This document shows, one piece after another, positions 3,861 through 40,831 of a stretch of DNA of 64,000 nucleotides. Position numbers and translations under genes: made by a program. Within the stretch, counting starts at the first letter, position 1. Each line of letters opens with the position of its first letter. The notes beneath the pieces were generated by a model. It ran no database searches, was not told the origin of the DNA, and saw only the letters and a program-made list of their open reading frames with translations. The stretch is from Zygnema cylindricum (lineage: Eukaryota; Streptophyta; Zygnematophyceae; Zygnematales; Zygnemataceae). The stretch is from contig JBBHKE010001445.1 in NCBI GenBank assembly GCA_037447655.1, positions 234,396 to 298,395 on the forward strand, given 5' to 3'.

Positions 3861-3930
3861 AATATATTGAATGCTTTTTGGAGGAACACCATTATTGAGT
3901 GTGTATTTTTTTTGGTTTGTAATATTTTAG

Positions 3931-9292: not shown

Positions 9293-9492
9293 AATTGTCC
9301 GTACACAATCAAAGGAATGTAATCGAATATAAACCACGACAAGGTGAAATAGAATCGGCAGTACAATATGAATGTCGCAACCTAAAGGACAAATCACCAC
9401 ACCAAAGCGAAAATAGAATCGTGCGTCGGGATGCGAAACATTGTCATTCTCACGGACGCCCGATTCTACAAGGTAACCTCAAAACCTCAAGT

Positions 9493-9946
9493 CAGAGGTC
9501 GTGAAAGGTCAACCGAAACCGTAATCGATTGTAAACCGACTGCCCGTGTGGGATCCGGAACGGATTCGGTTTCCAAATTTGAGAGGTCGGGCGGATTCGG
9601 GCGGGTGATTCACGAAAAAAACAAAAAAAAATAGTTTATGTTTGGGTAATAAAAAAACGAAAAACATTGAAGGTTTGTACTCTCCATACTATCTAACATT
9701 ATTATACTTTGTACTCTTCGTATCGTGGAAGTACGTGACATAATTTTGTGATTTTTCGGGTACGGGCGGGTAAGGGTAGTCGCGCGAAATCGAGTTTCGG
9801 TTAATTTTTTTTCCTAAACGCGTTTCAGGTAACGGTTAACAATTTAGGAGCGTGATATAACCCGGTCCGGCGTCAGGTGATCAGATTTTGTGAAAAAAAA
9901 AACGGTCGGTTTTGGTTATCTAAAATTCTGACTTTTGCGACCTCTG
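9493..9946. mobile_element. hAT-type MITE, copy 1
   Basis: 454 bp bounded by inverted ends CAGAGGTCG... and ...GCGACCTCTG and by a perfect 8-bp target duplication CCTCAAGT (9485-9492 and 9947-9954). An 8-bp TSD and YAGAGGTCGCAAA ends are typical of hAT elements. No transposase, so it is non-autonomous. Both subterminal regions are rich in 'ggtcggt'/'aaccg' motifs with poly-A runs. Confidence 0.9.
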
Positions 9947-10232
9947 CCTCAAGTGAGCCAACAAGTACCTAAGTACAAATTGACCAATCAGCAGCGGCAC
10001 GCGAAACGTGCGCCGGCAAAATACTATGACAGAATACTACCCTAAAGGCCACTGCGATCAATATGACACAAAACCGTATAGTGATCTAGACTTGTCGTAC
10101 AAATACCTAAATAGGACAATACGCAAATTACACAGACGCCAAACTAATCACTAAAGCCAAGCATACCATGATTGCAAAACCTAACAAAAAGGAGTATGGA
10201 AAAGAGGGAGAGAGGGAGATAGGGAGAGAGGT

Positions 10233-11663
10233 TTAAGAACACAAAGATTGACTCACTTCACTAATAAAAGTCCAAGATGCACAACAGAAGCTTACACATA
10301 AATAAATCAACTCACAACAAAATACATTGGCCAAACATTAATTTAATTAAACCGAAATCTTTTCCAATACAATCTCTCACTTTTACCAATCTAGCTCACT
10401 CAGATTTTCCATTGATCACATATTCTCACTCACACTGAACACATTTTGATGATATCTTTCCTAATTCTACTCACTTACTAAATACTCTCTACCATAATAA
10501 AGAACAAGTATAACAGAAAACAATACAATGCAAACAATTCCTAAACATAACAACCGAGTGCACTTTGAGTGCGCCTGCCATAGCTTGCAGCATCAAGCTA
10601 CCTCTACTCTGACAAATATGTTCTCTATAGTCTGACGGATTACTCTCTGTGAATCTCTCTATGAATCATAACAAGATCGAGCAAGATCGTAGCAGCATCG
10701 ATCGTACAATGGTATTGCCGCTTTGTCGTACACATAGAATATTCCCGCGGACGAAAAGATCGCGTCACGCTTTGCGTACCAATATTTCCTTAAAATCGAC
10801 TAGCGTCTGATTCGTGCAATTGAACCGACAAGCAGACTTCGCAAAAGTCAAAAACTTTCATACCTGAAACCGACCGTTTTTATTTTATCAAAATCTGAGT
10901 AACCGACGCCCGACCGAGTTTTGTCACGCTCCAAAATTGTTAACAATTAACCGACAGTCGTTTACGAAAAAAAAAATTAACCGAATCTTGATTTTTCACG
11001 ACTAACCGTACCCACCCGTAACCGAAAAAATACAAAATTAATCAATGTACGACGGAATAAGCCAATAATTACGATTTGTCGCGTTCCCTAAGATTTGCGA
11101 AATGAATAGTGTTACTACCGTGTCAGATTTGCGACGCTTTGTCGCGTTGCCTAAGGTTTGCAAAATGAATATTGTACTACTGTGTCAGATTTGCGACGCT
11201 TTGTCGCGTTCCCTTTGATTTGTGAAATAAAATAGCTTACTACAGTACCGTGTCAGATTTGCAACGCTAATCATGATGTCATGTACTTCCACGATGCCAA
11301 AAGAGTACAAAGTACAAGAATGTTGGATTATAGGGACAGTACATAATTTTCATTTTTTTTGGTTTTTTGGTTGATCGACCGTAACCGACCGTTTTTTTTT
11401 TCCTGGTGAATCAACTGACCGTAACCGCCCGACCCCCAAAATTTGGCAACCGAATCCGTTCTGGATCCGGCGCGGGCGGTCGGTTAACGGTCGGTCACGG
11501 TTTCGGTTGACCGTTTGCGACCTCTGCCGACAAGTACAGTACCAAGCATACACGTGAACCGACAAATGTATCAAACAAAACGAAACATAAATGTCGCACT
11601 GAAACTAACCAAACATTTAGTGGTGCGATTTCAGCCGACGTCGATTCACCCAATATCCAAACA
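10233..11663 (-). repeat. 3' LTR of gag-only element
   Basis: On the minus strand it begins TGTTTGGATATTGGG next to the polypurine tract and ends at 10233. Without the hAT MITE (10833-11526 plus one TSD copy) it is about 730 bp. It aligns along most of its length with 13611-15066; shared strings include 'gatgatatctttcctaattc' and 'gaatattcccgcggac'. Confidence 0.8.
10833..11526. mobile_element. hAT-type MITE, copy 2, inside 3' LTR
   Basis: 694 bp with a perfect 8-bp TSD CCGACAAG (10825-10832 and 11527-11534). Ends are CAGACTTCGCAAAAG and ...GCGACCTCTG, so the left terminus carries two or more changes. Opposite orientation to copies 1 and 3. The other LTR has the uninterrupted target 'acgacaagtac' (about 15029), which confirms the insertion. 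Confidence 0.92.
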
Positions 11664-12118
11664 ATCCCCCTCATATTGAGAGAATCGTTTGAAAGCACAA
11701 TACCTTTGTTGGTCGCCCCCTCTCAAACAGAATATCATACACAAAACATAAAAACCGTACTCTCACACTAAAAAAAAACCATACTCACCGAAAAAACTGA
11801 CTGTACATTTTAAAATTAACCGTACACTCATTTCGTACCTAAATTTTTCACCTCACTTCACTTCTCACGTCTGACTTCTCTCACTGACGTCTCTCTCACA
11901 TTTTGCTTACTCACTTCCTCACTAATCAATTTCAAAATATAAAATTAAAATTTCTTCTCACTTTCTCTTTCCTTGTTGTCTAACCGTACTTACACTTAAC
12001 CGACAATTCGCCCATTACCCTTTGTCGCTTTTCCGACAAGTCAAAACTGTATCGCATTGTGTACCGCAATGTGGCTGAAATCTTCATCCAAGCCAGGAAA
12101 ATATCCATGGCTTCCTCC

Positions 12119-13540
12119 TCAACCATTTTTGCGACCAATTCCGCGACCACTGACTACTCTTCCTCCTCTGTCCGAGTTCCCTTCACTTCGATCAAAACAT
12201 TGTGTACTGACATGTCCCCACCTCTGACAAAGGTAACATTGTTTTTGGAGATCTGTACATTCGGCAGCAAAATGTCCCAATTTCAAACATTTGTAACATT
12301 TGTAACACGTTACATTAGGATCAGTTTGACTTTTGTTAGCACCTGCATTTTGCATTCCTCCTCTACCTTCGTTACCACTACCACCTATACCTCTGAAGGA
12401 TCTACCACCCCCTTTTCCATTAAGTAAATTCACTGTTGCATCTGTGGAATAATTAAGGGGGGCAGATTCACCAAACGTAACAGATGCCTTCACTCCTCTG
12501 CTCGTACCATCTTGTGTTTTATCCACTCGCTCCAAGTAACTCACCGCATACTCGTACGAGCCTTTTTTTTTCGATTGAATAATGTCACTTGGAGTGCGAA
12601 GATATTCGAGAAGACCGTTCAAAAACACCTGCAATTTGTGGTATTCGTCTAAAATTCGTCCAAAATTAGTCAGCTGCTCCACAAGAATATTAAACATTTT
12701 CACTATATCGTCGATAGGTTCATTTTCCTTGAATCGAAATTGAATAAAATCTGGAAACACAAATTGCCCCTTATCCTCAACCCCTTTTTCAAATTGATTA
12801 TCCAAACCCACCCAACAATCATGAGATGTTTCATAAGCCAAAAAATGATCTAAAACTGAACCATGATAACTTTGCATTAAACCGTTAGTGGCGGCGATAT
12901 CTTTTCACTTCCACAACTTCTTTCCTAGGAGATCTTTCGGTTTCCTCTCCTCTCCATTCATAATCTTCTACAAACTTTTCAAAATTAATTCTCGTTTAAT
13001 ATATTTATTCCAAACGGCATATTTCAAGGCATTGAACAACACAGTTTTTATGGACATACGAAAATTCCCCTCAACTTCAGCCTCACTACCAAGATCTAAA
13101 TCTTCTTCGTCATCAATTTTCCCTTTCCCTCTACGATTTTTCTCCCATTTTTTCTTTTTAACTTCTCCTTCCGAATCGCCTTTATCAACATCATCCGGAT
13201 CTGCATCCGGATCGCAAAACACTTGCAACTTGCCCTTTTGAACAGCCGAGAGCCGTTCATCAAAAGTGCGAACAAGTCCATCAAATAAGATCTGGAGTTG
13301 CTCCTTAGACAAAGTAACATTAACATTTGTTTCCTTCTTAATCCATCCAAGCGGATCATTGGGGAGGACCTCTTCAAATTGGTCGCCAGTGAAGCCTTTA
13401 TCACTCGGTTCCAGCAATGTGTCACGTTGCTTTGGTGGAGGAGTCTCACTCGGTTCCGACGATGTGTCACGTTGCTTCAGTGGAGGAATAAAAGTGGGTG
13501 CAGAGACGAAACAAGTTTCTTTTTCTTCACTCCTATAACA
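12119..13540 (-). pseudogene. Copia-type Gag with two zinc knuckles
   Basis: Two reading frames (13417-12968 and 12877-12119) represent one Gag broken by a stop near 12968. The first half has an acidic/Lys-rich middle. The second half has the Copia Gag (UBN2-like) pattern: 'HDCWVGLDNQFEKG', a conserved 'VEQLTNFGRI', 'LLEYLR', and then two CCHC knuckles, CYKCLKLGHFAAEC and CYLCQRWGHVSTQC. A short N-terminal direct repeat encodes 'PPPKQRDT' twice (about 13420-13490). Gag builds the particle and packages RNA through the knuckles. No pol domain follows in the 455 bp before the 3' LTR. Confidence 0.8.
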
Positions 13541-13592
13541 ACAACACTAGCCTGATTTTCCTCACAAAATATCTTAAGCACTCAATTGCAAG

Positions 13593-13608
13593 ACCCGTTT
13601 CGATACCA
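13593..13608 (-). promoter_or_regulatory. Primer-binding site of gag-only element
   Basis: Immediately inside the 5' LTR the minus strand reads TGGTATCGAAACGGGT. It shares TGGTATC with the standard plant initiator tRNA-Met PBS (TGGTATCAGAGC), then differs, so the exact primer tRNA is uncertain. Confidence 0.6.
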
Positions 13609-13610
13609 AT

Positions 13611-15066
13611 TGTAAGAAAACAAGGATCGACTGACTTCACAAATAATAGTCCAAGTTGCATAGCGAAAGCATACACATAAATAAATAAACTCACAACAAA
13701 ATACATCGGCCAAATATTAATTAAATTATACCAAAATCTTTTCCAATACAATCTCTCAAGCTTACCAATCTAACTCACTCAGATTTTTAACTCTCGTTGA
13801 TCACATATTCTCACTCACACTCACTCTGAACACATTTTGATGATATCTTTCCTAATTCTACTCACTTACTAAATATTATCTACCATAATAAAGAACAAGT
13901 ATAACTGAAAACATTACAATGCAAACAGTCCCTAAACATAACGACCAGGTGCACTGTGAGTGCGCCTGCTATAGCCTACAGCATCAAGTTCCTCTTCTCG
14001 AACAAATATGCTATCTGTAGTCTGACGGAAGCTACCTCCACTCTGACAACTATGCTCTATGTAGTTTGACGGATTACTCTCTGTGAATTACTCTCCACTT
14101 TGACAAATGTGCTGTACGTAGCATGACGGATTACTCTATGTGAATTACACTCTGTGAATGTGAATTACTCTTTGTGAATCGTAGCAGGTTCGTGCAAGAT
14201 TGTAGCAGCATAGGTCGTACAAAGTAGAGGTCGCAAACGGTCAACCGAAACCGTGACAGACGGTTAACCGATCGCCCGCGCCGGGAATGGATTTGGTTGC
14301 CAAATTTTGAGGGCTAGGCGGTTGCGGTCGGTTGATTCACTAGAAAAAAAAACGGTCGGTTACGGTCGGTCAACCAAAAAACCAAAAAAAATGAAAATTT
14401 TGTACTTGTCCATACAATCCAACACTATTGTACTTTGTTCTCTTTGGTTTTGTGGAAGTACGTAACATCATGATTAGCGTCGCAAATGTGACACGGTAGT
14501 AACACTATTTTTTTCGCAAATCTTATGGAACGAGACAAAGCGTCGCAAATCTGAAACGGTAGTACACTATTCATTTCGCAAATCTTAAGGAACGCGGCAA
14601 AGCCTCGCAAATCTGACACGTTAGTAAACACTATTCATTTCGCAAATCTAAGGGAACGTGACAAATTGTAATTAGTGGCTTATTCATACGTCGCACATTA
14701 GATAATTTTGTACTTTTTAGGTTACGGGCGGACACGGTTAGTCGTGAGAATTCAATTTTCGGTTAACTTTTATTTTCGTAAACGCCGGTCGTTTAACAGT
14801 TAACAATTTTGGAGCGTGACATAACCCCGTTGGGCGTCAATTACTCAGATTTTGAAAAAAAAAACGGTCGGTTTCGGTTATATAAAATTTTGACTTTTGC
14901 GACCTCTGGTACAAAGGTATTGCCGCTTCGTCGTACACATGGAATATTCCCGCGGACAAAAAGATCGCGTCAAGCTTCGCGTACCAACATTTCCTTAAAA
15001 TCGACCAATCTCCGATTCTTACAATTAAAACGACAAGTACAATACAGAGCATACACGGGCGGACAA
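13611..15066 (-). repeat. 5' LTR of gag-only element
   Basis: On the minus strand the LTR ends ...CTTACA at 13611, next to the PBS. It matches 10233-11663, apart from the hAT MITE at 14225-14908 and tandem duplication of a 'gacggattactc'-type segment (about 14020-14175) that makes it longer. Similarity stops near 15066, shortly before a mariner MITE fragment, so the outer end is missing. Confidence 0.8.
14225..14908. mobile_element. hAT-type MITE, copy 3, inside 5' LTR
   Basis: 684 bp with ends TAGAGGTCGCAAA and ...TTTTGCGACCTCTG and a perfect 8-bp TSD GTACAAAG (14217-14224 and 14909-14916). The empty site is present in the other LTR as 'gtacaatggtattgccg' near 10707. It holds three diverged tandem copies of an ~80-bp 'gcaaatctgacacggtag' segment, seen in inverse orientation in copy 2. 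Confidence 0.93.
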
Positions 15067-15107
15067 ACTTTGAGGATATCAAGGAGACTATCTCCATGTT
15101 GAAAGTA

Positions 15108-15326
15108 CACCGCGAATCGGAATTAGAGTAAAAAAATGAAAAAAAATAATTAGAATTATTAACTCTAATTTGACTAATCAATTTTTTTCAATAACAAATT
15201 TTACTCTAATTTATCAATAACTCTTATTAGAATATCTTTCCGTACTAATTGTAGATATTTTTATTGTAGATTAGGTACACGTACAGAATCTGACAAAGCG
15301 TACAGTTTCACGTCATTATGACGTTG
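15108..15326. mobile_element. Mariner-type MITE fragment
   Basis: Starts after TA with CACCGCGAATCGGAATTAG, matching the terminal repeats of the complete copies at 57786 and 58771, and contains the same internal 'cgtcattatgacg' palindrome. It stops near 15326 where the next repeat begins, so roughly half the element is missing. Confidence 0.75.
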
Positions 15327-15590
15327 GTCGAGCGTGCCGGGAACAACATAGAAGCAAGTTCCCACGTTAGAATGAGTGTGCATTGGGGTCTTGGAAACCG
15401 GGAGGTTTGGGAGAGAGGTCCGAGAAGGTGTGCATAGAAGACCTGCAATCCACCCCAAATGCTGATGCTCTTCCGGATGTGTGATAATGCCCTGTTTTGT
15501 ATCTTCCTTCTCCAGGATATGCATGGGTAGAAATGAGGGAGAGAGTGAAAGAGGAAAAAGTGCCCTGGACCCCCCTTCCCTAAATTGTGC
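15326..15590. repeat. ~255-bp direct repeat, copy 1
   Basis: Closely matches 16785-17036; shared strings include 'gggaacaacatagaag', 'ccaccccaaatgctgatgc' and 'gagggagagagtgaaagagg'. See copy 2 for interpretation. Confidence 0.85.
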
Positions 15591-16784
15591 TTATTCGCCG
15601 GAAGCCCACTAAATGCTACACCCCTGAATACTACCCAAAGGATGGGAAGGGAATGCGAGTCTTCCAATCCAGCCCGTAAGAACTCCGGACAGAAACTAAG
15701 AACGACCCCAAATAGTGTGCAAATGACTTCCACGCAGAAATATAGAATAATAAATATCGGCTTTTTCAGATTCAACAATATCACATTGCCCCTGAAAAAA
15801 GAAATAAAGATATAAATCAATGAAAATGGTAAAGCGAGCTCACATAACCCGGAGTGCAACGAAGAAACAACTTAGAAAGAGAAACCTCTCTCAATTGCCC
15901 CGAAGATTGATATGATTCTCCCTCACCCCTCGGTTCCGCCGCACGGATCCGTACAGACTATTCTAAGTTTTAAACAGCGAAAATCCAAACCGCCCAAAGT
16001 GAGGATAGTGCCAACAACCCAACCAAGCTACGGTTTCCACAAAAGACAATCCAAAACAAAGATGACAATAGAGTTCACGACACTATGCAACTGTTCTCCA
16101 ACAAAAAGATTGATTGTATTTTCTGGGGGTTTTCTCGAAGACAATACTGAAAAAGCAACCTGTCTCCTTCAGCCCCAAATGCCTTATACAAGCAGAGTTT
16201 GTCCTACTGCAAGTGCCCAAGTCAAAGCAATACCTAGAGCCTATCAGCGGCCAAAAATAGTTATCGTACGGACCTAAGACAAAACAAGTTGTGCTACACT
16301 TAGGGCTAAAAGTTAGGCGTCTAGCCTTTGTTGGAATGGAAGCCACATGTCCTTCTATACGACACTTAAGAGTAACAAAGTTCTGAATCGAAGTGAAACA
16401 CCTAATCTTTGACTCTAAGTAATAAATCCTCTACCCGTCTGGTGGACCTGAGCTGACATCCTACGGACAGCTAACAACAAAATCAAAAAGACTATCCCAA
16501 AAGTTACGTGGCGTTCCACAATGTACCCCCCCACCGGAGTAGGTGGAAACGAGTCACAGGTAACAAATTGGCAATCTTTGAAGCAAAATAACTTAGTTGT
16601 CCCGCCTGTGTTAGGCGTGAAGTAAAGTGTGTTTTGCTCTGTTTGGTAAATATAAAGATTTTGTCCAGCACGGAGCACTTTTTTTCTTCGTACTTTGATG
16701 ACCGTACAGAGTAAAAAGGGTCCGAAAATCCTTGGAAGAAATGAAAGGGTGCATGTTAAGCGTCCAAGCTTGACAACTGTCGAG
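15591..16784. other. Spacer between the direct repeats
   Basis: No coding domain recognised on either strand. If the repeat at 16785 starts the Gypsy 3' LTR, this spacer would be the rest of that LTR (about 1.4 kb); the matching 5' LTR is not present, so this cannot be confirmed here. Confidence 0.35.
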
Positions 16785-17036
16785 CGTGTCGGGAACAACA
16801 TAGAAGGAAGTTCCCACGTCAGAAAGAGAGTGCATTGGGGTCCTGGAAACCGGGAGGTTTAGGAGAGAGGTCTGAGAAGGTGTGCATAGAAGACATGCAA
16901 TCCACCCCAAATGCTGATGCCCTTCCGGATGCGTGATAATGCCCTATTCTGTATCTTCCTTCTCCAGAATATACATGGGTGGAAATGAGGGAGAGAGTGA
17001 AAGAGGAAAAAGTGCCTAGGCCCCCCTTCCCTAAAT
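16785..17036. repeat. ~255-bp direct repeat, copy 2, next to Gypsy 3' end
   Basis: It abuts a minus-strand AAGAGGGGGGGGGGG run (about 17041-17056) that looks like a polypurine tract after the Gypsy coding end. This suggests the repeat is the start of the Gypsy 3' LTR and that copy 1 is the start of a second, tandem LTR. That is inference; no 5' LTR is visible upstream of gag. Confidence 0.55.
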
Positions 17037-17081
17037 TCCCCCCCCCCCCCTCTTAGTCTTGCGTGACTAAGAGGTTAAGAT

Positions 17082-17500
17082 AAATTAGCCGCCAAATTCG
17101 CAGTCCCCACAGAACCACGGATTTGCGATTTGAGAGCGGACCTTCCAAGTGGATGGTAGGCAGACGTCGTGCCGCCCTTGACGACAGTGATCACACATTG
17201 ACAAGAAGCCGGGCAAAGAAGACGTGTTACAGGGTGAGGAGCATAGGGGTGGATCAACAAAGTAAGTGAGGTGGAAAGTGGGTTCGTCTTCCAACCGTAG
17301 TACATGGGAAGGAGCCACATTAATCTGGTTTTCTTTAATTCTGCGGCCATCCTTTCCTTCCAAGGTCAAAACCCCTTTGTTAGGAACCTCCACTACTTTA
17401 AGAATCACCCGTCCGGCCGAAATGTCCAAAGTGTCTTTCTTCTGTTGCATGCGATACACGAAATCCTCGGGCATGAATCGCCGTTGCCGAGGGACATAAT
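17082..17500 (-). pseudogene. Integrase C-terminal tail plus PHD finger
   Basis: The reading frame from about 17474 starts with an integrase-tail segment ('VILKVVEVPNKGVLTLEGKD', then 'INVAPSHVLRL'), similar to the post-catalytic module of Gypsy integrases. The last ~55 residues form a full C4HC3 PHD pattern: C-x3-C, C-x2-C (MCDHC), H-x2-C (RHDVC), C-x2-C, with the hallmark Trp two residues before the seventh ligand (WFCGDC). Chromodomains are common at this position in Gypsy elements and target integration; a PHD finger could do the same by reading histone H3 tails (inference). This final stretch is open, unlike most of the element. Confidence 0.75.
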
Positions 17501-17634
17501 TGCGGCTCTTTCGTTAGGAATACCAAAGCTGATCCAAGTGCTAAGCAACCTGTAAATTTCCCATAGCGAGAGGCATTTCCCATTGAAATGCCTTGGCCTT
17601 TTCGGCAATTAGCTTTTCCACCGTCCCCCGATTG

Positions 17635-18116
17635 TCTATTTCCAAAGTACAACTACGTGAGCCGATGAAGCTCCAGAAGGATGGGATGTTGGCTAAAGAG
17701 AATAAAGTAAGGGCTATAGGAATGGAGGGAGGCCTGCCTGCTGAATCGTTATCCCATTGCTATCGATGGCACCCTTTTGTCCCATTCCCCCACATCTTCT
17801 TCCATGACATATTTTCGTAGTGACCACTTCACTGTCTGTATGCACCTTTCGGCCAAACCGTCGGCCTGCGGGATTGTCCATTTCCAAAGTACAAGTGCCT
17901 AAACTGATGCAGCTCCAAGGAGGATGGGATGTTGGCCAAAGAGAATAAAGTAAGGGCTATACAAATGGAGGGAGGCCTGCCTGCTGAATCGGTATCCCAT
18001 TGCTATCCATGGCACCCTTTTGTCCCATTGCCCCACATCTTCTTCCACAACATATTTTTGTAGTGACCGCTTCACTATCTATACGCACCTTTTGGCCAAA
18101 CCGTCAGCCTGCAGGT
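17635..18116 (-). repeat. Tandem duplication inside integrase (2 x ~240 bp)
   Basis: Segments 17635-17872 and 17877-18116 are near-identical direct repeats; both contain 'gggaggcctgcctgctgaat' and 'ggcacccttttgtcccatt'. They cover the integrase core from the 'QADGLAERC' Glu region onward, so the post-Glu half of the integrase is present twice. Confidence 0.9.
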
Positions 18117-18720
18117 GGTCTCGGCTTGTTAGACAGTGGTCCATGAGGCACTTCTCCAGAAGGTAAGTAAATTCTCCGGCAAATTTAGATCCCTGGTCAG
18201 TTAGAACCTCTACTGGCGCCCGAAATTCTGACAACACTCTTTGCAAAAAGGAGTCTGCAATAAACTTAGATTCCTTCCGGGGCATAACCACCAACTCTAT
18301 CCATTTCGAAAAATGTTCAATCATGATCAGTACAAAACGGTTCCCCTGCCTGCTGGTTGGAAGAGGTCCCAAAACATCCCCCGGATAGGGAGAGAGTGAA
18401 GCTCAGTTTCGCCTTTTTTTGTCAAAATCTGCCTTAACTCGATCGCATGAAGAGCAAGTCTGCACAATCATATTGACTTGGGCCCGCAACCCGTGCCACC
18501 AATAAGATCCTGTGACAAGAGAAGTGGTCCGTTTCTGCCCGAAGTGCCCGCATTGCTGATGGAGGCGGGAAATTAGAGTTTCTCGATCTGCGGGTGGAGG
18601 AACCTGTTTCCTCGTTCCGTCAGCCCATTTTCGGAGGAGAATTCCCCGGTCCCAGTCATATGCCGCCATCCGGGTCTGCATACGGGATAATTTAGCACCA
18701 GCCAAGTGGGGAAGTGGAGA
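17640..18720 (-). pseudogene. Gypsy integrase (H2C2 zinc finger and DDE core)
   Basis: From 18705: an integrase zinc-binding domain ('LISRLHQQCGHFGQKRT' then 'MIVQTCSSCDRVKA', an H-x-C-C type arrangement). After a stop at about 18403 the core resumes at 18372 with 'MGPLPTSRQGNRFVLIMIEHF' style residues (family first Asp region), 'VEVLTDQGSKFAG' (second Asp) and 'HLQADGLAKRCV', where the family Glu in 'GLAERC' is Lys in the copy nearer the core and Glu in the duplicated copy. Stops and the tandem duplication inactivate it. Confidence 0.85.
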
Positions 18721-18898
18721 TCACTGCTGGATGGATTGTAGAGTATCGGAGTCATTCCATATTTCTCTCCTCCCCGCTCCTATTGGTGCTTGTCCTTCAA
18801 CGTCGGCCGCAAAGTTGGATAATTCCCTTCCAGCTTGGGTAAGCAAGATAAAAGTGGAGGAGGCTCGTATAAGTCCCAAACTGATCTCTGGATCCTCA

Positions 18899-19300
18899 TC
18901 ATGTCGCGCCCGGTAGAATCCAATGTGGAGGGGTCGGGATTTCGGCTGAGTCGTCGACATTCCCGTGAATCTCTCCTGCCCTGTGGATGATGCTGAAATC
19001 GTATTCCTGTAGGATCAAAACCCACCTAGCGAGTTTGTCGGCTAATTTACTGTTTTCTATGATCCATTTTAGAGGTTGATGGTCGGTAATGAGGGTGAAG
19101 TGGATCCCGTAAAAATATGGCCGGAAATACTGAATTGCCCAAACGGCCGCCAAAAGCTCCCCATGGTAACTGTTGTAGTTCCCCTCAGCTTTGTTATTAC
19201 TCCGGTTGGCATAAGCCACCACGTACTCAACTCCTGCATCGTCCACTTGAGCCAACATTGCTCACAATCCGAACCTACTCCAATCCGTATAAAGGAGGAA
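18899..19300 (-). pseudogene. Gypsy RNase H
   Basis: The reading frame 19258-18899 has Gypsy RNase H signatures: 'VVAYANRSNNKAEGNYNSYHG', 'ELLAAVWAIQYFRPYFYG', 'FTLITDHQPLKWI' and 'LARWVLILQEYDFSIIHRAG' (each a separate motif). The catalytic Glu of 'ELLAA' and Asp of 'TDHQ' are present. A frameshift near 19260 separates it from the RT frame, whose end carries the first RNase H strand ('FLLYTDWSRFGL'). Confidence 0.88.
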
Positions 19301-20350
19301 GGGGCGCTGGTGATCGGGCATCCGAAGCACGGGGTGTTGCTTTAGGAAATCCTTCAAGAATTGAAAAGCAGTTTGCTCTTCTGCCGCCCAGTGCCACTCG
19401 TGGTCCTTTCTCACTAATAAATTCAATGGCTGGGCGTGGGAACTGAATTCGAGAATAAACCTCCGGTAATAGTTAGCCAGCCCTAAGAAAGTGCGAAGAG
19501 CAAAAATGTCTTGCGGGGGTGGAAGGGTGTCAAGGGCTGCCACCTTAACCATATGGGGACCCACTATCCGTAAAGTCACCTCATGACCCAGATAGATGAT
19601 TTTTTGCACCACAAAAATGCCCTTTCTCGGGTGACACTTCAAGCTCGCTGCTTGAAGAGCCCGGAGAACGATCTGTATATGCTCCAACAGTTCTTCAAAT
19701 GTTTTGGAGAAAATGATCACATCGTCGATGTAACATCGTGCGCAATCAATTCCTCGGAGAGCCTCGTCCATGGCCCTTTGAAAGTTGGCAGGTGCATTTT
19801 TGAGACCAAATGGCATGTACACCCATTCATATAACTTGGATCAGGCCCAAAAACCAATCCTCTCCCGATGCTTTGGCTCCATTGCAATCTGGTGGAACCC
19901 ATTTTTTATATCCATCGTAGAGTAAATGTTGGCCCCATCAAGAGAGTCGAAGATTTCTTCCGCGGTGGGCATGGGATAGCGGTCGAAAACCGTGGTCAGG
20001 ATTAGCATCCGATAGTCCCCACACTTCCGTTAATCTATAGTTTTCCCAGATGAGTCTTTCTTTTGCAGGAGCACTGTTGGAGAGGCAAACCCATGTAGCC
20101 ATGTACTTTCTTGCACCAACCCCACATCCACCAAAGTCTGGACCTATGCTGTGATGAACTCCATTTCCTTGAAGCTGAAGGGGTTATGTTTCTACCAAAC
20201 AGTCGCCGTCTCTTCGGTCAGGTCAATGCGAAAAGGGGTCCCCTTATAAATCCCTACATTCGTGACAGACCAAGAGAACACCTGCCCGTTTTCCTCTAAC
20301 AGCTTGGGGAGCCGGGCCTTCTGCAGTGGGTCTAGCTGTTCCCCCAAAGT
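19262..20350 (-). pseudogene. Gypsy reverse transcriptase
   Basis: The segment from about 20350 begins with the usual pre-RT stretch ('LPKLLEENGQVFSWS', 'GTPFRIDLTEE'), then 'FASPTVLLQKKD', 'CGDYRMLI', 'YPMPTAEEIFDSLDGA', 'DIKNGFHQIAM', and 'MPFGLKNAPANFQRAMDEAL'. The active site is CYIDDV (about 19721-19735), intact. 'FLGLANYYRRFI' marks the RT connection. Stops at about 20165, 20033 and 19848 are present in the N-terminal half, while 19822-19262 is a single open frame. Confidence 0.9.
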
Positions 20351-20639
20351 CTAGTCCATCTTCCCGAGTTCCACTGCCGCCAATGCTTCCGGTGGCCGAC
20401 CCCAAAAAGAGATGTCAAATTCGAGTTCTACCTGTGGATCCATCCCAGGCTCGGCTGCTATAGCGCTGTTGCTGACAACTTCCTCTAAGCTGTCCTGTTC
20501 TGAGCCTCCTCTCCCCCCCACTGAGGAAACTTCTGGGTGTAGTGAGCCCCCAGAATATAATTTGCTGAATTTTTCCCTTCTTGTCTTTCTCCCCCCTTCA
20601 AGCTGTAGAGTTGCTTGCCTGGCCAACAACAATGGAACT

Positions 20640-21730
20640 TGAAGGTATGTTGATCGTGATTCTGGGGACTCAAGGCTGGAGAAGGCCAGAGAATGTCGCA
20701 TCACCCATGAAATTGCATTCAAATCCATACTTTGCCCGATTAAACTGCACCTTTTCGAGGCGGAGACCCCTGGTACTGCTATGGTTGCCGGTTGAAATCC
20801 CATCGCTTGTTCCCGTTCCTCAATACTTGGTGCTGTCCACGTAGCGGTCTTCTTGTCAAAAATCATCCTTGGTGCCCCCTTCCAGTAAGCATGGTTGTTA
20901 AGGAAAGATACCAGGGTCGGTAAAGCCCTCCGTGGATTTCCGGGTTTATTGCAACCAAAGAAGGGTGCTCGGTCGGCTGTGGTCACTAGGGTGGCCATTC
21001 GCTCGGTCTGAGAATTTTTTGAACTGTGATGTTAGGATCCGGAACATGGGTGTTCAACAGCTGTTGCAAGACGGGAAGTAGAACCAAGTTGGTCCAATAA
21101 GGTCTAACTCGGTGGGCTTGGAACAGACCTGAGCTGCATGAAATACTATGGGAGTCCCCAAAACCTTGGTCACTTGGTTCCAACTGTTGACTACCTGTTC
21201 CCTTTTATCATCTGTCAAATGAACATTTTCCAAGAAGTACCCCACTGGTGTGTCGTAGCGTTCCTGTAACCCTGTTATTAGTCGAGTCATTTAAAAAAAT
21301 GTTGTGCTACAAACATCCTGGTGTCCTTTGCCCTGTCCTGCTAATGAATACCCTTGGAAAGGCCATCCAGCTATCACCAAGTCTACCATTCCAAGCTTCT
21401 CCAAATGTGATTCCGTGATGTGGTCTACATTTTGGGGAAGTGTACGGTGGGTGTTAGACATGGCCGACAGCGGGAGTTGCTGTGGGTAAAGTTGGTGCAG
21501 CTGTTGCAGTCAATTCTCACTGATTGCACAGGCCGTCTGGGTCAATCTCGACTACCGAGTACGTTGCTACTTGGTATCCCGCCATCAGGACGGCTTCCAG
21601 GTCGGAACTAATGCCGAAAAATAGCGAGAGAATCCAGAGTCATGAAGGCGGGATATCCAGTGTTACCACTTGCCAGTTGAAGTCTTTCCCTGGGTTAGGA
21701 ACCGTTGGGAGTTCAAGCCAGATGAGCTTT
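20640..21730 (-). pseudogene. C5-cytosine DNA methyltransferase domain (Dnmt3-like) in Gypsy element
   Basis: Motifs appear in canonical order on the minus strand over about 310 codons. Motif I: 'LSLFFGISSDLEAVLMAGY' (family LSLFDGI; the Asp is Phe), about 21637-21580. Motif II: 'VVEIDP'. Motif IV: 'DLVIAGWPFQGYSLAGQGK' (about 21385-21330), where the catalytic Cys of PCQ is Phe. Motif VI: 'GYFLENV' (about 21240-21220). Motif VIII: 'AHRVRPYWTNL' (about 21117-21085). Motifs IX/X: 'APSIEEREQAMGF' and 'RCSLIGQSMDLNA'. The AHR..YW and ENV forms are those of the Dnmt3 group; the order is not circularly permuted as in plant DRMs. Stops and at least three frameshifts make this copy inactive. A working version would methylate cytosine using S-adenosylmethionine, possibly on the element's own DNA (inference). 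Confidence 0.85.
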
Positions 21731-21843
21731 GTTGTTCTGTATGATATGGTGGCAAAGCCCCTGTACACTCCTCGCCGGAGTATGGCCATTTGTACGAATC
21801 TGCGTTGATACTCCGTTTCCCACCGCTTGGAGATGGGGAATTG

Positions 21844-22360
21844 CTAGATGGAATTTGCGATATGGGTGGAATCATCGAACAACTTTGAAGGGGTGGATGC
21901 AGAATACACCGGATAGCATCCAGCCACTGAAACAGTTGTTTTCCCCCGTTTCCATAAATCCAAGGGGACCACTACCTTAGTGCCTTTGGGATTTTCCGGG
22001 TCTGAAATGGTTACTTGTTCTTTCCATATACTCAGCTCCATGTTCAACCTTGTCCATGTGGCCATACCCAACAGAATTTCAAATTGCTTCCCTTCCACCA
22101 CCAAGAAGTGGAGCTGAATTTGAACATGTTGACCCGCGTCATCCGCAAATTCAATTTTCATTGCTTTAATGATGCCATATACTGGTTGGCTCCCACTGAC
22201 TATACTCAGGCATATTTCACTGGGACTCATTTTTGGCCTGATTTCCTCAGGCATTTTCTACAATGCTGAAATGGTAATGAGATTAGGAAGGGCTCCAGTA
22301 TCCACCACGGCATTTGATATCCGGTATATCCATTAAGTTTAAAATTACCTGTCCTATTCA
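21844..22360 (-). pseudogene. Gypsy aspartic protease
   Basis: On the minus strand 'VVDTGALPNLIT' (about 22310-22275) is a clear retropepsin active-site motif (DTG). It is followed by a stop, then by the frame 22254-21844, which continues the fold: 'QIQLHFLVVEGKQFEILLGM' style residues and 'TWTRLNMELSIWKEQVTI', matching the ILLG flap-end motif of retropepsins. The frame before DTG ends at 22227, so a frameshift lies just upstream. It lies directly before the methyltransferase. Confidence 0.8.
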
Positions 22361-22445
22361 GAATAAGAGCTACTGACAGGGTATTATAATCTCTATCTGC
22401 CATAGAAGTTTTCGGTTTTGCTAACATGAAGACTGTCTTTGGTGG

Positions 22446-23130
22446 TTATGCTAACGCTATGGTTTCCCTCCTGGTGTGAATCTCTTCCCTTAGGGCCTGA
22501 TGAGGATTTCTCTGGAAAAATTGTGGGAGGAAGTTAGCGTTTTGACGTGGGTCAAGGCGTAGGGCATCAAGTGTCGCATTAACATAACCGCCGATTTGGA
22601 AAACGAGGGTGAGCTTTTGGCGAAGAAATGGGTGAGTCCTCATCTTCCGATTTCTCCTGTCCCCCCCCCTTGCTTCTTCATCCTCTGCGTGAGAATTTGT
22701 TGTTGGAAGTGTAATTGGTGGATCTGCGGTTGGTCTTTCTGCCAAGTATCGATCGAACCATTCTTGATCTGTTTCAGTGTTTGAGACCTCTTTTCTCAGC
22801 TGTGGTTTCTTGTAACTTTCAAAACCAGGAGGAAGTTTCTTTGGAACCGGAGGAGGAAGACGGGTTGGTTTTAGGCCTAGCCCAATGTCGCTCTTCAATA
22901 TCACAGCCCGTGGTGTGAAGGATAAAGGACCGGTGGTTTTGCGACTATTGTCTCCCTGTTCCATTGGCTGTTTGTCCCTGGCTGTTTGTCCTTTCTTTGC
23001 GCAGCATTGGTAGATCGGAGTTGCCTGCGATTGTCCACGACTCTGATGTATAACATTGTGACTCGTGGAAAAATAAATAAATATCCGCAACGGACGCTTG
23101 ATTATACGGCTACACGTGGCATAGGCCATG
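22446..23130 (-). pseudogene. Gag-like / pre-protease region of Gypsy element
   Basis: An open frame of about 220 codons, Pro- and charge-rich ('LPPPVPKKLPPGFESYKKPQ', 'QEWFDRYLAERPTADPP'), in frame position upstream of the protease. No zinc knuckle or recognised Gag domain, so the assignment rests on position. The beginning of the frame may extend into flanking sequence. Confidence 0.5.
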
Positions 23131-23320
23131 TGCCTTCCGCCAGCGTGGATGCAAGGCCAGCGAAAGCCGAGAGAAAATCTTTGACGGAAGATATAATAAA
23201 AAAACTGGTACATTCTATATATGGGCACATAGCCTAAGTTGTAGTAGTACTTTTGATTAAATGTTTTTATTTTTTATTTTATTATGAAGTCAAAGTCGGT
23301 CAGCGCATTTATAAAAAAAA

Positions 23321-24866
23321 GGGAATTGATCAGGACTGTGACCGTTTTGGTTGCGCACAGTTCCCTGCGTCAGTTTGTCAAAAATTGTAGGTTTTGAAGT
23401 ACATATTGGTACAAACAAAGTACCGTTGAGTACAAATTTGGCAATTAATAGGTTTGACAACTTTGACTTTCAAAATATTGTTTCAACCGCCTAAAGTTTT
23501 TCCGCGCTTGCGGACGTCGACGGTCATAATAAAATTAGCAATTCACACGGGCTGCGAACGTTTACGGTTACAAAATTGCGCCAACCGCATGTAAATAAAA
23601 TGGTTGCAGACAGTCACTTTTTGTCGTTACGTGAGCTCCACCGTGAGAGCACTTAGCCCCAAAATTGAAATTGAATCGTCTAAGCGTTACATTGAACTTA
23701 GACGCAAAGTGAAATGGAACCTCTTTGAACTAAACTGAACCACAGTACTGTAAGTTTTGCATGGAAATATTAAAACGCACGAAACGAAATTTTGCTGTCA
23801 ATGTAAGAATGTTAAATCATAGATAGTGTGGCTCGATTTGGTGGCGTGTGACGACACACATTTTATTCATTTTATTTCAATTGATATTTTTACGCCGGTT
23901 CGTTTTATTCATAATTGTTCAAATCGCGCGATTTTTTCCTTTTTTCCGATTAAAACGTATAATTCGTGACGTTTGAATAAATCGGAAAAAAACGCGATGT
24001 ACTTTCTGTCCGGTAAACTGAACGGAGAATTTACGGGAACTGTACGGTACGTACAGTAACTGTACGGTTTTGTACCCAAAAAGTACGGAATTTGACTAAA
24101 AGATACGTTGCAATTTGTAGTACTTTCTGTCCAGTAAACTTAACAGAAATTTAACGGGAAACGTACGGAATTGTACCACCATTGTACGGACTATGACAAA
24201 AAAAGACAGGAACTGTACGGAAAATGTACAAATTGCGGGCTATGTAAAATTTATTTTTGTTTACATGTACGGAATAGTACGGACGAAAATTCATTACCGA
24301 TTTTTATGATTTTTTCAAAAGGTTCAATGCGTTTGTTAATTATAATTCGTTGCGATTAAATCGTTCGCACTAAACGCCGTGAACAACTATGGTTTTATTA
24401 TAGTGCACAAAGTTTATTTCGTTTCGTGCGTTTTAATATTTCCGTATAGAACTTACTGTAGTTATGTTTACTTTAAAGAGGTTTCGTTTCACTTTGCGTC
24501 TAAGTTCAATGTAACGATTAGGCGATTCAATTTCAATTTTGCGGCTAAATGCTCTCACCGTAGATCTCACGTAACGACAAAAAATGACTGTCTGCAACCA
24601 TTTTATTTACATGTGGTTGCCGCAGTTTTGTTACCGTAAACGTTCGCCGGCTGTGTGAATTGCTAATTTTATTATGACGGTCGACGTCCGCAAGCGCGGC
24701 AAACTTTAAGCGGTTGAAACAATATTTTGAAAGTCAAAGTTATCAAACCGATTGACCGTCAAATTTGTACTCAACTTTACTTTATTTGTACCAATATGTA
24801 CTTCGAACGTATAATTTTTGACAGTGACGTTCGCAACCAAAACAGTCACTGTCATGATCAATTCCC
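23321..24866. mobile_element. Foldback-type DNA transposon, copy 1
   Basis: Long inverted arms (23321-23793 and about 24407-24866) enclose about 600 bp. Ends are GGGAATTGATCAGGACTGTG and ...CATGATCAATTCCC. Flanks are A8 on both sides, consistent with an 8-bp TSD like that of the second copy. No transposase. The centre has two 'gtactttctgtcc' repeats about 121 bp apart (23999 and 24120) in sequence saturated with 'gtacgg'. Confidence 0.85.
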
Positions 24867-25129
24867 AAAAAAAATGCATTTGTTCAAAGTCGATCAACGC
24901 ATTTAAAAAAAATGCATTTGTTCCGTGCGTATATATCATTATTTTTTCGATGTTTCATGCGTGCGTATAAAACGCTTGGTACCTCTATGTCTGGAAATGT
25001 TGTACGTTTAGTTTAGTACGATAGTACCTTTGAACTGGATAGTACTTTATTTCGGCTTGTCGTTTTGCAATGTATTCAGTCTTTAGTGAAAATTAGCGTG
25101 TTCTAGTCTAATCCGTGGACAAGTGGCAC
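24867..25129. other. Short non-coding stretch between elements
   Basis: Contains repeats of 'aaaaaaaatgcatttgttc' at the foldback flank (24867-24922). Nothing else recognised. Confidence 0.4.
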
Positions 25130-26819: not shown

Positions 26820-27481
26820 TTACGCATATACTTTCACTTCACATAAAGTTAACTCTGTGCCTTTACGTGTTCGAACCCATAACCAACGAGCACCCATTCC
26901 CCGACAATTCTTTCGAAATGGATATGCGGTTCCATTATTGGCATAAGTGTACTTATTTGATTGGTCACATTGGGCTGCAGTGGCAAAATATTGGCTAACA
27001 GTACTTAGCCAAACTTCAACATTATTGAAGTTCTCATAAACTGCTGTGGAAGTAATATCAGATCGGCTATACAATAACACATCTTGGATGCAAAAGTAAC
27101 CCTGCAAATCAATCACCACATATGGTGTGCTTCTCTCGACTGCAGTTGTCGTACATTCAGAGGTTGAAAAAGTTCCATTTGGAGGAATGTTGCCGTCCAC
27201 GATACTCCTTGCTATGCAATCTTGACAGCCTGACTTCACAGAGCTTTGAAACACTCTTTTGTTTAAAGCCCTATTTGGCAAAGGGGAAGGTGATGCCCGA
27301 CAGGGAGGTGGAGGAGGAGGAGATGGCGGACGGGGGGGTGGACGAGGTGGAGGAGATCGTGGAAGGGGTGGAGAACGTGGAGGGGGGGGACTAGGAGGTG
27401 GTGGAGGTGATGGTGGAGGAGGTGGTGGTGGGGAAGGTGGAGGGGAAGGTGGAGGAGGGGAAGGTGGAGGTGCTGAATTCA
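26820..27481 (-). other. Exon 10: Pro-rich stalk and fucolectin-type domain
   Basis: After a TGTGCAG acceptor the exon encodes about 60 residues of SPPPP/PPRSPP repeats, as in pherophorins and extensins, then a ~150-residue C-terminal domain: 'RALNKRVFQSS', 'ARSIVDGN', 'YVVIDLQGYFCIQDVLLYSR', and the ending 'LTLCEVKVY'. The ALNK start, SIVDGN and the terminal LCEV-V-Y are marks of the F5/8C-like / eel-fucolectin (FTP) family, which binds sugars. The stop is directly after '...VYA'. The complementary + strand is GGA-rich and its open frames are shadows. Confidence 0.85.
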
Positions 27482-30400
27482 CTGCACATGATTGCGTGTT
27501 AGATTAGAACCTCATCAACTACTATTCACAATATTTTTTGCCAACCTCACATTCATGTTTTTCTAGCTATGTATTTCTCAACCATAACGAAGGGCCAGTA
27601 CACATACATGCCCGCCCGCAACTTTAAAATATTCATACGGTTATTAGTATATTGGGAGCTTGTAAAATATTATACAATCTCGTTTCCTAATTATGATTTA
27701 GGAGGGAATGGACAAAAATGGCACCATCGTTGTGGTAGAGAATGTTGACCAAGCCAGCAGATACTCAAGTGAACTTTTATTCCACATGTGTAAAACAAAC
27801 ATATTGTCTTGATTAATTTGCATTGTGCTTTACATGAATGACCAAAGTGCTTCGCAAGCGGTCAAAGTGGAAAGGGAGAAGGGGGATGGAGGATAGATAA
27901 GGGGGAGGGAGGAGAAATAAGGGGAAAAGGGGGTGAGAATTTAGGACTGTGGGTATATAGAAATCCAGAGAAAAGTTATCTATTTTGGTGGGAGTATCTA
28001 AATTTTTCCACACAAGTACTTCCAGATTGTTTTTTATCAAGTGGAATTTTTGTGTTAAACACTGAGTAGTGGAATGAAGTTACCTTTAAACCTCGGAAAA
28101 AAGCACCAAATTGCAAGTTATTTGAGAAAATGACTTTTCAATGCTCGTAATACTTCTATTTTGTTGAATTCGACGTAAAATTTATTTTTTAGTTGGGGGT
28201 TACGGAAGAGCTATAAACCAAGTAAAATATCACATGTGGAATATCAAACGTGAAAAAGGAGAGCTACGCTCCATGATTGTTCCTTTATATATTTTCCTTC
28301 GTATTTAAAAGTATATATCTGAATATATCACAATGATCAATAGTTTGAGATTGTGAATGTTGGGTATTATTAATAAGTAAATTAATATATTTTTGCTTAG
28401 AAAATTTGATAATTCGACAAAAATTAAATTCAAAAAAAAAAAAATTGTTAAATTCAACTCAATAAATAACATCTTACTCATAAAACCAAAACTCTCAGCT
28501 TGTAGAGTTACATTACATTGTTCATTTTCAAAATTTGTATGGCGAAGTGAATTGTTAGCAGTATGCATCTTGCGTGCACTTACGTTCACAATAGAAAGGG
28601 TTTGCCTGATTGTTGTATCCGTCATTGCATGCACATGTACTTGTCGACGCGTTTGGACTTGTAGAACAAACACCATTGCCCCCACAAGGCCCTGTGGAAT
28701 TCACCGCATTGCAAAACGATTCACATACACTTATAGCTCGTTGGTTGGCAGAAGGACAATCCGCTGGAAGATTGGAGTCAAAGAGGCAATTGGTTTTCAA
28801 AGAGAAACAATCTGGTTGCCCATTAATTCTTCGTATCGGACCGGTCAAGTAATTACCATAAATATACCTGCAATTTTAGAACGTCATTGCGATAGAAAAA
28901 CTTGGTAAGCCATGGAAATTCCTTACAAAAACGAGTAGCAAATAAAAGGAATCACGAAGGCATGAACCTTGAAGCCACCTCACCTCTAAGCTCCCCAACT
29001 CAACATATACAAAGAGAGGAAAACACTCCAATATGGGAAAAAAGGAGATCAACCCCGGGAGGGAGGTGGGGGGGAGGAAGTGGAATGGCAAGCAAATGCA
29101 ATTGTAAGTGAATGTTCAACTTAGACACATTTCCTATATTTTCCCTCAACTTATCATCTTTCCGCTGTAGATTGTTAAATATTGTGTCTTTGGGTCATTT
29201 TAAACATGATATTCTATTAGAAGGAAAAGGGTGGATTTGAGAGAAAAAAAAAAACGAAAGTGTTTACGAGGGTGTATATTTAGAAAAACAAGCATATTAG
29301 GTACTAAGTTGCTACTCTTTTTCGAAACTTAGAAACGATTTGGAAAATCGAGAGTGATCGTTTCAGGGTTTCTTGAAGAGTCGATCTCTTACGAGCATCT
29401 CGATGTATTTTTTATTCTTATAGCTTTAATACTTATCCTTTCAAACCTTGCCCTATTACAAATCATGGCAATTAGTGTCTCTCGATCCATAGCATAACCA
29501 TAATAAGTATCAAGTGTCTTACATGCTGCCGATGCTGCTCAATTGTTCCACGGATGATGGAATAGGCCCACTCAATTGATTCGAACTAAAATCTCTGAAA
29601 GTAAATAAAACAAAATAAAACAAATAAAAAAATGAGAAAACATCAACACTCCCTCTCCCTTTTCTCCTCGGTCCGCTTCATACTCGAAGCCACCTCTCCC
29701 TTTAGCCTCCCACCCATACACATGCAAACCAATGTATACAAAGGACGAAACCTGAAACGTGGAAAAAAATACTACAATATTTCCACAATGTTGTCAATGG
29801 ATTCATAACCCCACAGCCACCCGTTCCAACATTCGGTGACTTCATTTTTCCAATAAAAATGATATTTGAAAAATCAATAAAACCGTGAGCCCAACATAAC
29901 TAGCTTTTCATCAAATTAAGGTAAAAAATTCCGATTTTGGATGAAGAGTGAAAGCTACGTAAAAAGTTGCTATTATCAAATTTCAGTCGAATCTATCCAT
30001 GTTCGTACCATATTTCAGCCTTTAACACATACACATGCATGTGCATGTGCGTCTTTTCACGTGTTATATAACAACCTATGTACAATCGTATTCTATCTTT
30101 TGCCACCACACACTTGAACTTGCACACCCACCACATCCTTAACATGACCTACACCATTTCAAGTGTTCAAACAAATTTATATTTATTTGCAAAACCGATC
30201 ACAAAAATGAGTGCAAAGAATAGTGGAAAAAAACAATTGTGAAATGTTATGATCTTACACCATTTAATTTTCATGTATGACCCCCACGTTCCACTCTTCA
30301 TCCATCATAGACTATCAAGATGCAACATATTATTGAAACGTACAAAAAAATAACCATAGCGTAACTAATCAAAGTAAACTATTAACACACATGCCATCTT

Positions 30401-40830: not shown

Positions 40831-40831
40831 T

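Follow-up and report, generated by a model that had tools for sequence, protein, structure and literature searches.

What is a cytosine methyltransferase (MT) doing between the protease and the reverse transcriptase (RT) of a Zygnema retroelement, and is it a lasting part of that element or an accident of one locus? The window analyzed here is a 64,000-nucleotide stretch of DNA, and its minus strand almost certainly holds the remains of a Ty3/Gypsy-type element of lineage A in which a Dnmt3-type MT lies between these two domains (15327..23036, delimited by blastn against relatives and by the end of a repeat). The first-pass annotation had proposed this arrangement, and both the minus-strand motif order and the Pfam profiles of relatives bear it out. 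It had also placed the element at 17037..23240, an extent that had to be corrected on both sides. On the left, homology to relatives ends at 23036 (blastn), and the copy is thus 5′-truncated. On the right, the element continues through the repeats B1-A2-B2 to 15327, where the end of B2 adjoins another repeat (15105-15325). Scans for tRNA genes and Rfam families over the whole window found none, and rbcL, sought as a host marker, has no match in the assembly.

All domains of the window copy lie on the minus strand. Remains of a Gag-protease linker (22446..23036) were recognized by tblastn to the relatives L001, L002, and L009, and a Pfam scan of this segment gave no match. The adjoining aspartic protease (21847..22311) was identified by tblastn to relatives and by the motif AVVDTGALPN (22311-22282, containing DTG); in the intact relative L031, the protease matches Asp_protease_2 at 0.00021, which is below the cut-off. 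An in-frame UAG (21844..21846) followed by CAATTC precedes the MT (20700..21843), which is spread over three frames, interrupted by frameshifts and stops. RT and RNase H (18899..20350, with stops; RVT_1 3.6e-17, RT_RNaseH_2 7.1e-9) retain the RT motifs GFHQI (19900-19865) and CYIDD (19735-19709), and are followed by an integrase H2C2 zinc-binding domain (18403..18720; PF17921, 5e-16) and core (18079..18402; rve, 3.7e-8); the integrase region contains a tandem duplication of 243 bp (17630..18115). The order RT, RNase H, H2C2, and rve is that of Ty3/Gypsy elements (Metaviridae). The C-terminal piece (17085..17513) ends in a PHD-like finger (17100-17195; PF00628 at 0.00055, below the cut-off), for which the relative L033 gives 1.5e-9. 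Chromoviruses carry a chromatin-reader type of module C-terminal to the integrase, and the Zygnema element likewise has a reader-type module in this place, but it is a PHD finger; the Pfam scan of L031 and L033 gave no chromodomain match. Features beyond the first-pass annotation are this finger, the UAG before the MT, the split repeats, and the wider distribution described below.

By the usual motif names (I-X), the MT of the window copy contains motifs I (21633-21586), II (21552-21538), IV (21386-21330), VI (21233-21219), VIII (21140-21120), IX (20818-20795), and X (20749-20705) on the minus strand. The reported motif order therefore stands, with the qualifications that motif VIII is only a remnant and that motif IV reads PFQ and has lost the catalytic Cys. 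This order is the canonical one, not rearranged as in DRM, and PDB and fold matches agree with Dnmt3. In Dnmt3 enzymes, the MT is accompanied by an ADD or PWWP domain; the Pfam scan found neither next to the element MT, and the PHD finger sits separately after the integrase. While RVT_1 was strong on the window frames, PF00145 was weak on the broken MT pieces (0.0023; 17.8 bits against a cut-off of 22). In unbroken relatives, however, an MT at the same position scores 8.2e-13 and 2e-11, and the window pieces share 59-88% amino-acid identity with the nearest six genomic loci, which together place the window MT beyond chance.

The other copies are under purifying selection with their catalytic residues kept, the window copy itself excepted. 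Among the 25 distinct lineage A/B copies compared besides the window copy, 23 have the catalytic Cys, ENV and further MT motifs are retained, and the median dN/dS across copies is 0.28 for the MT and 0.22 for the RT, in a sample chosen by MT similarity and hence biased towards well-kept MTs. Lineage C reads ECQ instead of PCQ in motif IV. We also considered CpG depletion as a footprint of self-methylation and rejected it: the value is 0.63 in the element, and three Copia-like segments of the window that lack an MT give 0.54, 0.58, and 0.76, leaving no MT-specific signal (lineage C copies, 0.83-0.89).

The window copy is the fossil of a large Gypsy-type family, in part recently active, in which the MT is a standing Pol domain. 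At least 154 genomic matches to the window MT half were found. Among the 60 best RT matches, an MT match is listed 0.3-3.5 kb upstream of 33, and all 6 that were fetched from the other 27 also contain an MT, so that the arrangement is established in all 39 of the 60 that were checked. Unbroken relatives share the domain order Gag-PR-MT-RT-RH-IN-PHD, and one of them consists of one open frame of 2,395 codons, its A repeats being identical; at least one genomic relative is thus intact and very young. An apparent 5,743-aa frame at C961 is artefactual, caused by a run of N. The many copies with the MT-RT arrangement and the unbroken frames rule out a chance run of motifs or a single captured host gene, the case that would have spoken against the first-pass annotation. 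Its expectation of intact relatives elsewhere in the genome was likewise confirmed, as was its view of the window copy as a fossil.

The ends of the element do not form an ordinary LTR pair, since A stands at one end and B-A-B at the other. In the window, again on the minus strand, a 13-G run that is likely a polypurine tract (17038..17050) lies immediately before repeat B1 (16778..17037), which ends in CA and is 92.7% identical to B2. Two extra bases (GT, 16776..16777) separate B1 from A2 (15587..16775), which begins with TG and shows an 80% match to the 5′ repeat A1 of C1374, and B2 (15327..15586) forms the right end of the element. The full order A-coding-B-A-B is found in C1344. Among the first 40 of 52 DNA matches, 11 are B-A-B (window included), 20 A alone, 4 A2-B2, and 5 other. 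DIRS/PAT-type elements have split repeats in this same A-coding-B-A-B order, and DIRS elements use a tyrosine recombinase and lack target duplications. The Zygnema element, in contrast, combines DIRS-like split repeats with a DDE-type integrase (rve) and target duplications, and tyrosine recombinase (PF00589) was not matched in the Pfam scan of the L033 and L031 frames. As it does not have one LTR per end, we file it as a variant Gypsy-type element.

The ends read TG...CA, and exact target duplications of 4-5 bp flank four of six copies. For lineage C, the ends of eight copies were fetched and both were found in C1344, C449, C829, and C1915; one or both ends are missing from C1407, C2577, C284, and C783, which were excluded from the end analysis. 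The lineage A pairs fetched were C1718, C1837, and C121, with both ends readable only in C121, where they lie ~20 kb apart and a nested insert is therefore assumed. In C1374, A1 spans 20612-21797 and a first tail runs up to a B repeat that stops at 31632; a second tail, B1-GC-A2-B2, follows after another 3.7 kb (35349-37083). The left flank agrees with neither of these two right ends, and no matching duplication was found; this copy looks rearranged and was counted as a failure of the duplication test.

The in-frame UAG before MT-Pol is present at all 21 readable places, directly followed by CAATTC at 20 of them, a pattern that points to a likely readthrough site; its 3′ context presumably resembles the tobamovirus UAG-CAR-YYA. 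Invariance of this kind would also fit a host that reads UAG as a sense codon, but 102 Hsp70 exon matches hold internal stops of every type (16 TAA, 10 TAG, and 8 TGA) and the two longest hold none at all, making that reading very improbable.

The closest described system is KnitGypsy-Dnmt3 of Klebsormidium nitens (de Mendoza et al. 2018; available text of PMC5890265), a Gypsy element with Dnmt3 inside Pol that corresponds to the charophyte case named in the first-pass annotation. We infer that P0020 (KFL_009030040) is one of its copies. Like the Zygnema element, KnitGypsy-Dnmt3 has a Dnmt3-type MT between protease and RT (P0020), keeps its key residues under purifying selection, and, according to a figure legend of PMC5890265, combines a DIRS-like repeat order with Gypsy domains. 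The Zygnema element differs in its host, in its many more copies, in its described ends and target duplications, and in having a UAG before MT-Pol as well as a PHD finger C-terminal to the integrase; the words PHD and UAG were not found in the main text of PMC5890265, and the C-terminus of P0020 is partial. The same text reports that the Klebsormidium MT gave no methylation in yeast, a result called inconclusive, and describes two Symbiodinium retroelements carrying Dnmt, SymbioDIRS-Dnmt3, with Dnmt3 at two different Pol positions, and SymbioLINE-Dnmt. These are a tyrosine recombinase DIRS element and a LINE, whereas the Zygnema element has an rve integrase. DCM-encoding Ty3/Gypsy and DIRS elements are also mentioned for green algae and charophytes in the available text of a review (PMC6338049). 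The Zygnema element is thus of the KnitGypsy-Dnmt3 type, a known kind extended by the PHD finger, the UAG, the ends, and the copy number.

Relatives occur not only in Klebsormidium but also in chlorophytes, where Gypsy elements of the order RT-RH-MT-IN-PHD (Haematococcus QJQ45_013313, Monoraphidium MNEG_11595, and Chromochloris Cz02g39130) carry a related MT and have the integrase-PHD tail as well. Unlike in the Zygnema element, their MT lies between RNase H and integrase, and some have a G-patch. The RT+RH tree, which has no outgroup, divides cleanly by MT position and groups P0020 with type 1 at a 100/99 branch, which supports common descent of the Zygnema and Klebsormidium elements; the integrase tree, also without an outgroup, has little resolution and does not separate types 1 and 2. 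This clean division, together with the different place of the MT in Pol, would fit two captures from related cellular Dnmt3 genes, one per domain-order type, a scenario to which we give a real chance, though below even. Against it, type 1 and type 2 MTs detect each other at 32-43% identity, a weak argument given that the MT tree has a single distant outgroup and unsettled bootstrap. Only tentatively do we propose an ancient green-lineage clade whose members acquired Dnmt3 in one capture before the streptophyte/chlorophyte split (or spread between the two groups later), with the MT moving within Pol, methylation of its own cDNA, a PHD finger on the integrase, and split repeats used with a DDE integrase. 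Under this one-capture proposal, that last combination implies that integrable DNA would need a reverse-transcription route unlike that of ordinary LTR elements, via the fused-end B-(GC/GT)-A junction.

What the MT does can be approached through the life cycle that the sequence suggests. Ribosomes would mostly terminate at the UAG after Gag-PR, and occasional readthrough would yield the MT-RT-IN-PHD part. The packaged MT may then methylate cytosines of the element cDNA ahead of or during integration, and a newly inserted copy would in this way resemble host DNA on entry. A template for fusing the two element ends in reverse transcription could be provided by the internal B1-(2 nt)-A2 junction, the integrase would trim the ends to TG...CA and insert with a ~4 bp stagger, and the PHD finger may anchor the integrase at histone H3 tails, thereby directing the choice of insertion site. 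Taken as a whole, this account of a Gypsy-type family with an MT and such a life cycle is about evenly poised between right and wrong.

The first-pass annotation had offered self-methylation, silencing of competitors, and escape from host defence as possible roles. Action mainly on the element's own cDNA is our best guess for the MT, at slightly under an even chance. The enzyme might instead target other DNA, silencing competing elements or host genes, or damp the element's later expression and so spare the host. The many copies make action in trans feasible, and the available text of PMC5890265 discusses host methylome effects and slower transposition, but in every order seen the MT is part of Pol, next to RT and IN, which favors a role in the replication complex and leaves a trans-acting enzyme unlikely. 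Retention for nucleic acid binding or polyprotein folding, without catalysis, seems rather improbable: the motif IV Pro is replaced in lineage C and in many type 2 relatives (by a crude pattern, EC in 62, PC in 22, and 23 unread of 120), yet the Cys is kept in most lineage A/B copies, and ENV and other motifs are also retained, as described above.

These findings turn one described case into a testable family: one relative is intact and young, the methylase is conserved, and a histone-reader finger is present. Surveys based on PF00145 may undercount such elements, since many chlorophyte-type entries do not list it among their precomputed domains. The PHD protein family is reported to be at least 9-fold larger in Zygnema cf. 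cylindricum SAG 698-1a (PMC9915684), and if this strain is the host, as we infer, the elements may explain that enlargement. The family also bears on how a DDE integrase functions with split repeats. With more than 100 relatives in one streptophyte alga, one or more of them young and intact, evolution has kept an element predicted to write the host's silencing mark, which bears on why transposons carry an enzyme class that is used against them.

A decayed retroelement was found at window positions 15327-23036 on the minus strand, comprising from its 5′ side the remains of a Gag-protease linker, an aspartic protease (DTG), an in-frame UAG, a C5 methyltransferase (MT), a reverse transcriptase (RT; CYIDD), RNase H, an H2C2 finger, an integrase core and a PHD-like finger. 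The first-pass annotation had placed an MT between protease and RT on a single strand, which holds with the order read on the minus strand; its span of 17037..23240 misses the limits of the element, which reaches to 15327 on the right. The MT, split across three frames, shows motifs I, II, IV, VI, VIII, IX and X in canonical order, except that VIII is only a remnant and motif IV reads PFQ, so that the catalytic Cys is lost. A 243-bp tandem duplication lies in the integrase region. Since the match to relatives ends at 23036, this copy has lost its 5′ repeat and the beginning of Gag.

Several other features were observed in the window. A diverged repeat (15105-15325, 58069-58299 and 58801-58989; 71-72%) has one copy ending beside the right end of the element, and is probably the sequence that received its insertion. 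Adjoining the truncated left side is a multi-copy repeat (23314-24875, 59977-60557 and 62239-62602), which at one place forms inverted arms (23321-23790 and 24416-24866) with about 0.7 kb between them. A pair of Copia-like stretches (38562-44943 and 48793-55174; about 6.4 kb) with Copia-type pol fragments lie in opposite orientation and are 79.5% identical. The region 9489-15037 holds long direct and inverted repeats near 10.2-11.5 kb and 13.6-15.0 kb, with short arms up to 97% complementary. Extended GA-rich purine tracts (3930-4732 and 6075-7037) showing a weak periodicity of 8 bases and a degenerate TTTAGGG-like array resembling plant telomere repeats (63322-63586) were also noted. A 227-aa frame at 26823-27503 (minus strand) has a proline-rich run followed by a stretch resembling a discoidin-type extracellular domain, and is possibly a host gene.

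The MT-carrying element is a family and not an accident. As proposed in the first-pass annotation, the genome (352.8 Mb, 2689 contigs, window included) was searched for further MT copies beside the same RT. The C-terminal half of the window MT gave at least 154 matches (1346 candidates, 150 scored), and all 123 scored PF00145 matches (782 candidates) exceeded the cut-off, at least one being a host enzyme, a chromomethylase-like exon (L007). The window RT gave 150 scored matches from 3210 candidates; a listed MT match lay 0.3-3.5 kb upstream in 33 of the best 60, and all six inspected among the other 27 had an MT with 65-75% identity to that of the related locus L031, bringing the count to at least 39 of the best 60. 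Three lineages were distinguished, namely, A (window, L031 and others), B (L003, with an MT about 59% identical to that of L031) and the distant C (L004, L005 and L033).

Of 25 distinct copies other than the window, 23 kept the catalytic Cys, which was unreadable in L016 and L018; L014 and L015 were left out as repeats of L006 and L009. Across 178 pairs of 21 MT copies the median dN/dS was 0.283, and across 170 pairs of 19 RT copies it was 0.216, both medians being raised by the inclusion of fossil copies; for pairs with dS of 0.5-3, the values were 0.183 and 0.13. Cys retention and low dN/dS thus indicate, at the level of sequence, that the MT is under selection, kept somewhat less strictly than the RT.

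Searching proteins with the L031 MT recovered 26 relatives. The MT preceded the RT in seven (P0001, P0002, P0004, P0012, P0014, P0025 and Klebsormidium nitens KFL_009030040), one (P0003) had protease and MT only, and five were of unsure order. In the remaining 13, including Chromochloris Cz02g39130, RT or RNase H preceded the MT, followed by an integrase in 12. A query from this second type (MT between RNase H and integrase) found 252 proteins, and in 105 of the best 120, with Haematococcus and Monoraphidium among those named, the MT followed RT or RNase H and preceded the integrase. A PHD was present in 107 of the 113 with an integrase after the MT among these best 120, and was not found in P0012, which has an integrase. 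ECQ in place of PCQ in motif IV was common in second-type relatives and lineage C; among the best 120 second-type proteins, a crude pattern read EC in 62 and PC in 22 and left 23 unread, and ECQ also occurs in L005 of the same genome. A G-patch match followed the MT in two of four second-type proteins scanned (P0011 and P0019). P0011 and P0013 extend beyond the PHD without a Pfam match, in a stretch (DPWAG...SPWF) that by eye resembles amino-methyltransferases. P0235, a family member labelled as coming from a Minisyncoccia bacterium MAG, probably stems from algal DNA misplaced in a bacterial bin.

In an RT plus RNase H tree (16 rows, no outgroup), a 100/99 branch separated the two domain orders. 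The MT tree grouped the second type with five rows of unsure order (99/99) and did not recover the MT-before-RT kind as a single group, and the integrase tree did not separate the two orders. The K. nitens element KnitGypsy-Dnmt3 fell on the window family's side of the RT plus RNase H tree, suggesting either that the MT, through one capture or possibly two, was gained before the K. nitens lineage arose, or that the element moved between hosts.

The codon between protease and MT-Pol was TAG in all 23 readable rows (21 distinct places, window included; five further rows lacked a readable start), followed directly by CAATTC in 20 places and TAATTC in the other. This TAG is also kept in lineage B and L034, and no stop codon occupies the position in lineage C (L033). 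Internal stops in host Hsp70 exons (102 matches) were 16 TAA, 10 TAG and 8 TGA, making UAG recoding in the host unlikely and programmed readthrough the simpler reading. The UAG context presumably resembles that of tobamoviruses.

The element ends carry split direct repeats. Contig C1344 has the order A1 (931 nt), coding frame, polyG run, B1, extra GC, A2 and B2, with A1 and A2 identical in aligned pieces, B1 and B2 99.6% alike, and no B in the 657 nt read upstream of A1. The window retains B1-GT-A2-B2 (B1/B2 92.7% alike), and C1374 has B1-GC-A2-B2 (A1/A2 97-98.5%, B1/B2 99.5%). Among 52 genome matches to the window B1-A2-B2, 40 were classed: 11 full B-A-B (window included), 15 A alone with both edges, 5 A alone with the right edge, 4 A2-B2 and 5 other. 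DIRS-type elements share this layout, and a DIRS-like one was reported for KnitGypsy-Dnmt3 (Fig. 4c legend, PMC5890265). The integrated ends are TG...CA, and of six both-ended copies, three had exact 4-bp target duplications (C1344 TTGG, C1915 CCCT, C121 TCAT), one an exact 5-bp duplication (C829 AAAGG), one agreement at three of four bases (C449), and one, the apparently rearranged C1374, none. Together with the rve core, these ends and duplications point to insertion by a DDE integrase. The sequence following A1 in C1344 does not start with TGG, leaving no evident tRNA primer site of the usual kind at that point. The B1-GC-A2 junction would template fusion of the element ends. At C1374 31633-35348 (L031, L039), 3.7 kb are bordered on both sides by a copy of PHD end, polyG run and B (325 bp; 97.9% identity between the copies). 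The first B ends in CA and continues into unrelated DNA; the arrangement may reflect integration of a form lacking A2-B2, or it may have arisen by recombination.

Dnmt3 within a Gypsy Pol was already known from K. nitens (PMC5890265), green algae and charophytes harbour Ty3/Gypsy and DIRS elements that encode a DCM according to a review (PMC6338049), and a 2025 paper restates that DNMT3 is embedded in retrotransposons of streptophytes and dinoflagellates (PMC12344493), in agreement with the first-pass annotation, which placed such elements in charophytes and dinoflagellates. The PHD finger, UAG site, target duplications and two domain orders appear new for this family, no description having been found in the open-licence literature searched. 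Among the named proteins listed, a host HSP70-14-like exon was closest to Mesotaenium endlicherianum (code Mesen1; 81%), ahead of Physcomitrium (78%), Apium (77%) and Closterium (74%), with further assemblies reaching 96%; taken with the chromomethylase-like exon, this suits a streptophyte, probably a zygnematophyte alga. For Zygnema cf. cylindricum SAG 698-1a, the preprint text gives 359.8 Mb in 3,587 scaffolds with 73.3% repeats, and a PHD family at least 9-fold larger (PMC9915684).

Two observations count against methylation of the element's own cDNA. The Klebsormidium enzyme gave a negative result in yeast, inconclusive according to its authors (PMC5890265), and there was no MT-specific CpG depletion, the ratio being 0.63 in the window element versus 0.96 in the remainder of the window, 0.54, 0.58 and 0.76 in its MT-less Copia-like pieces and 0.83-0.89 in lineage C. 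The L033 PHD is nearest in sequence to PHF12, Lid/KDM5, BAZ2B, WSTF and PHF21A fingers, a class that reads the tail of H3, in many cases with K4 unmethylated, so it may guide the integrase. The best supported proposal is that the MT, a standing Pol domain, would serve replication, most likely acting on the element's own cDNA, where methylation resembling that of the host could conceal the new copy or determine its chromatin state.
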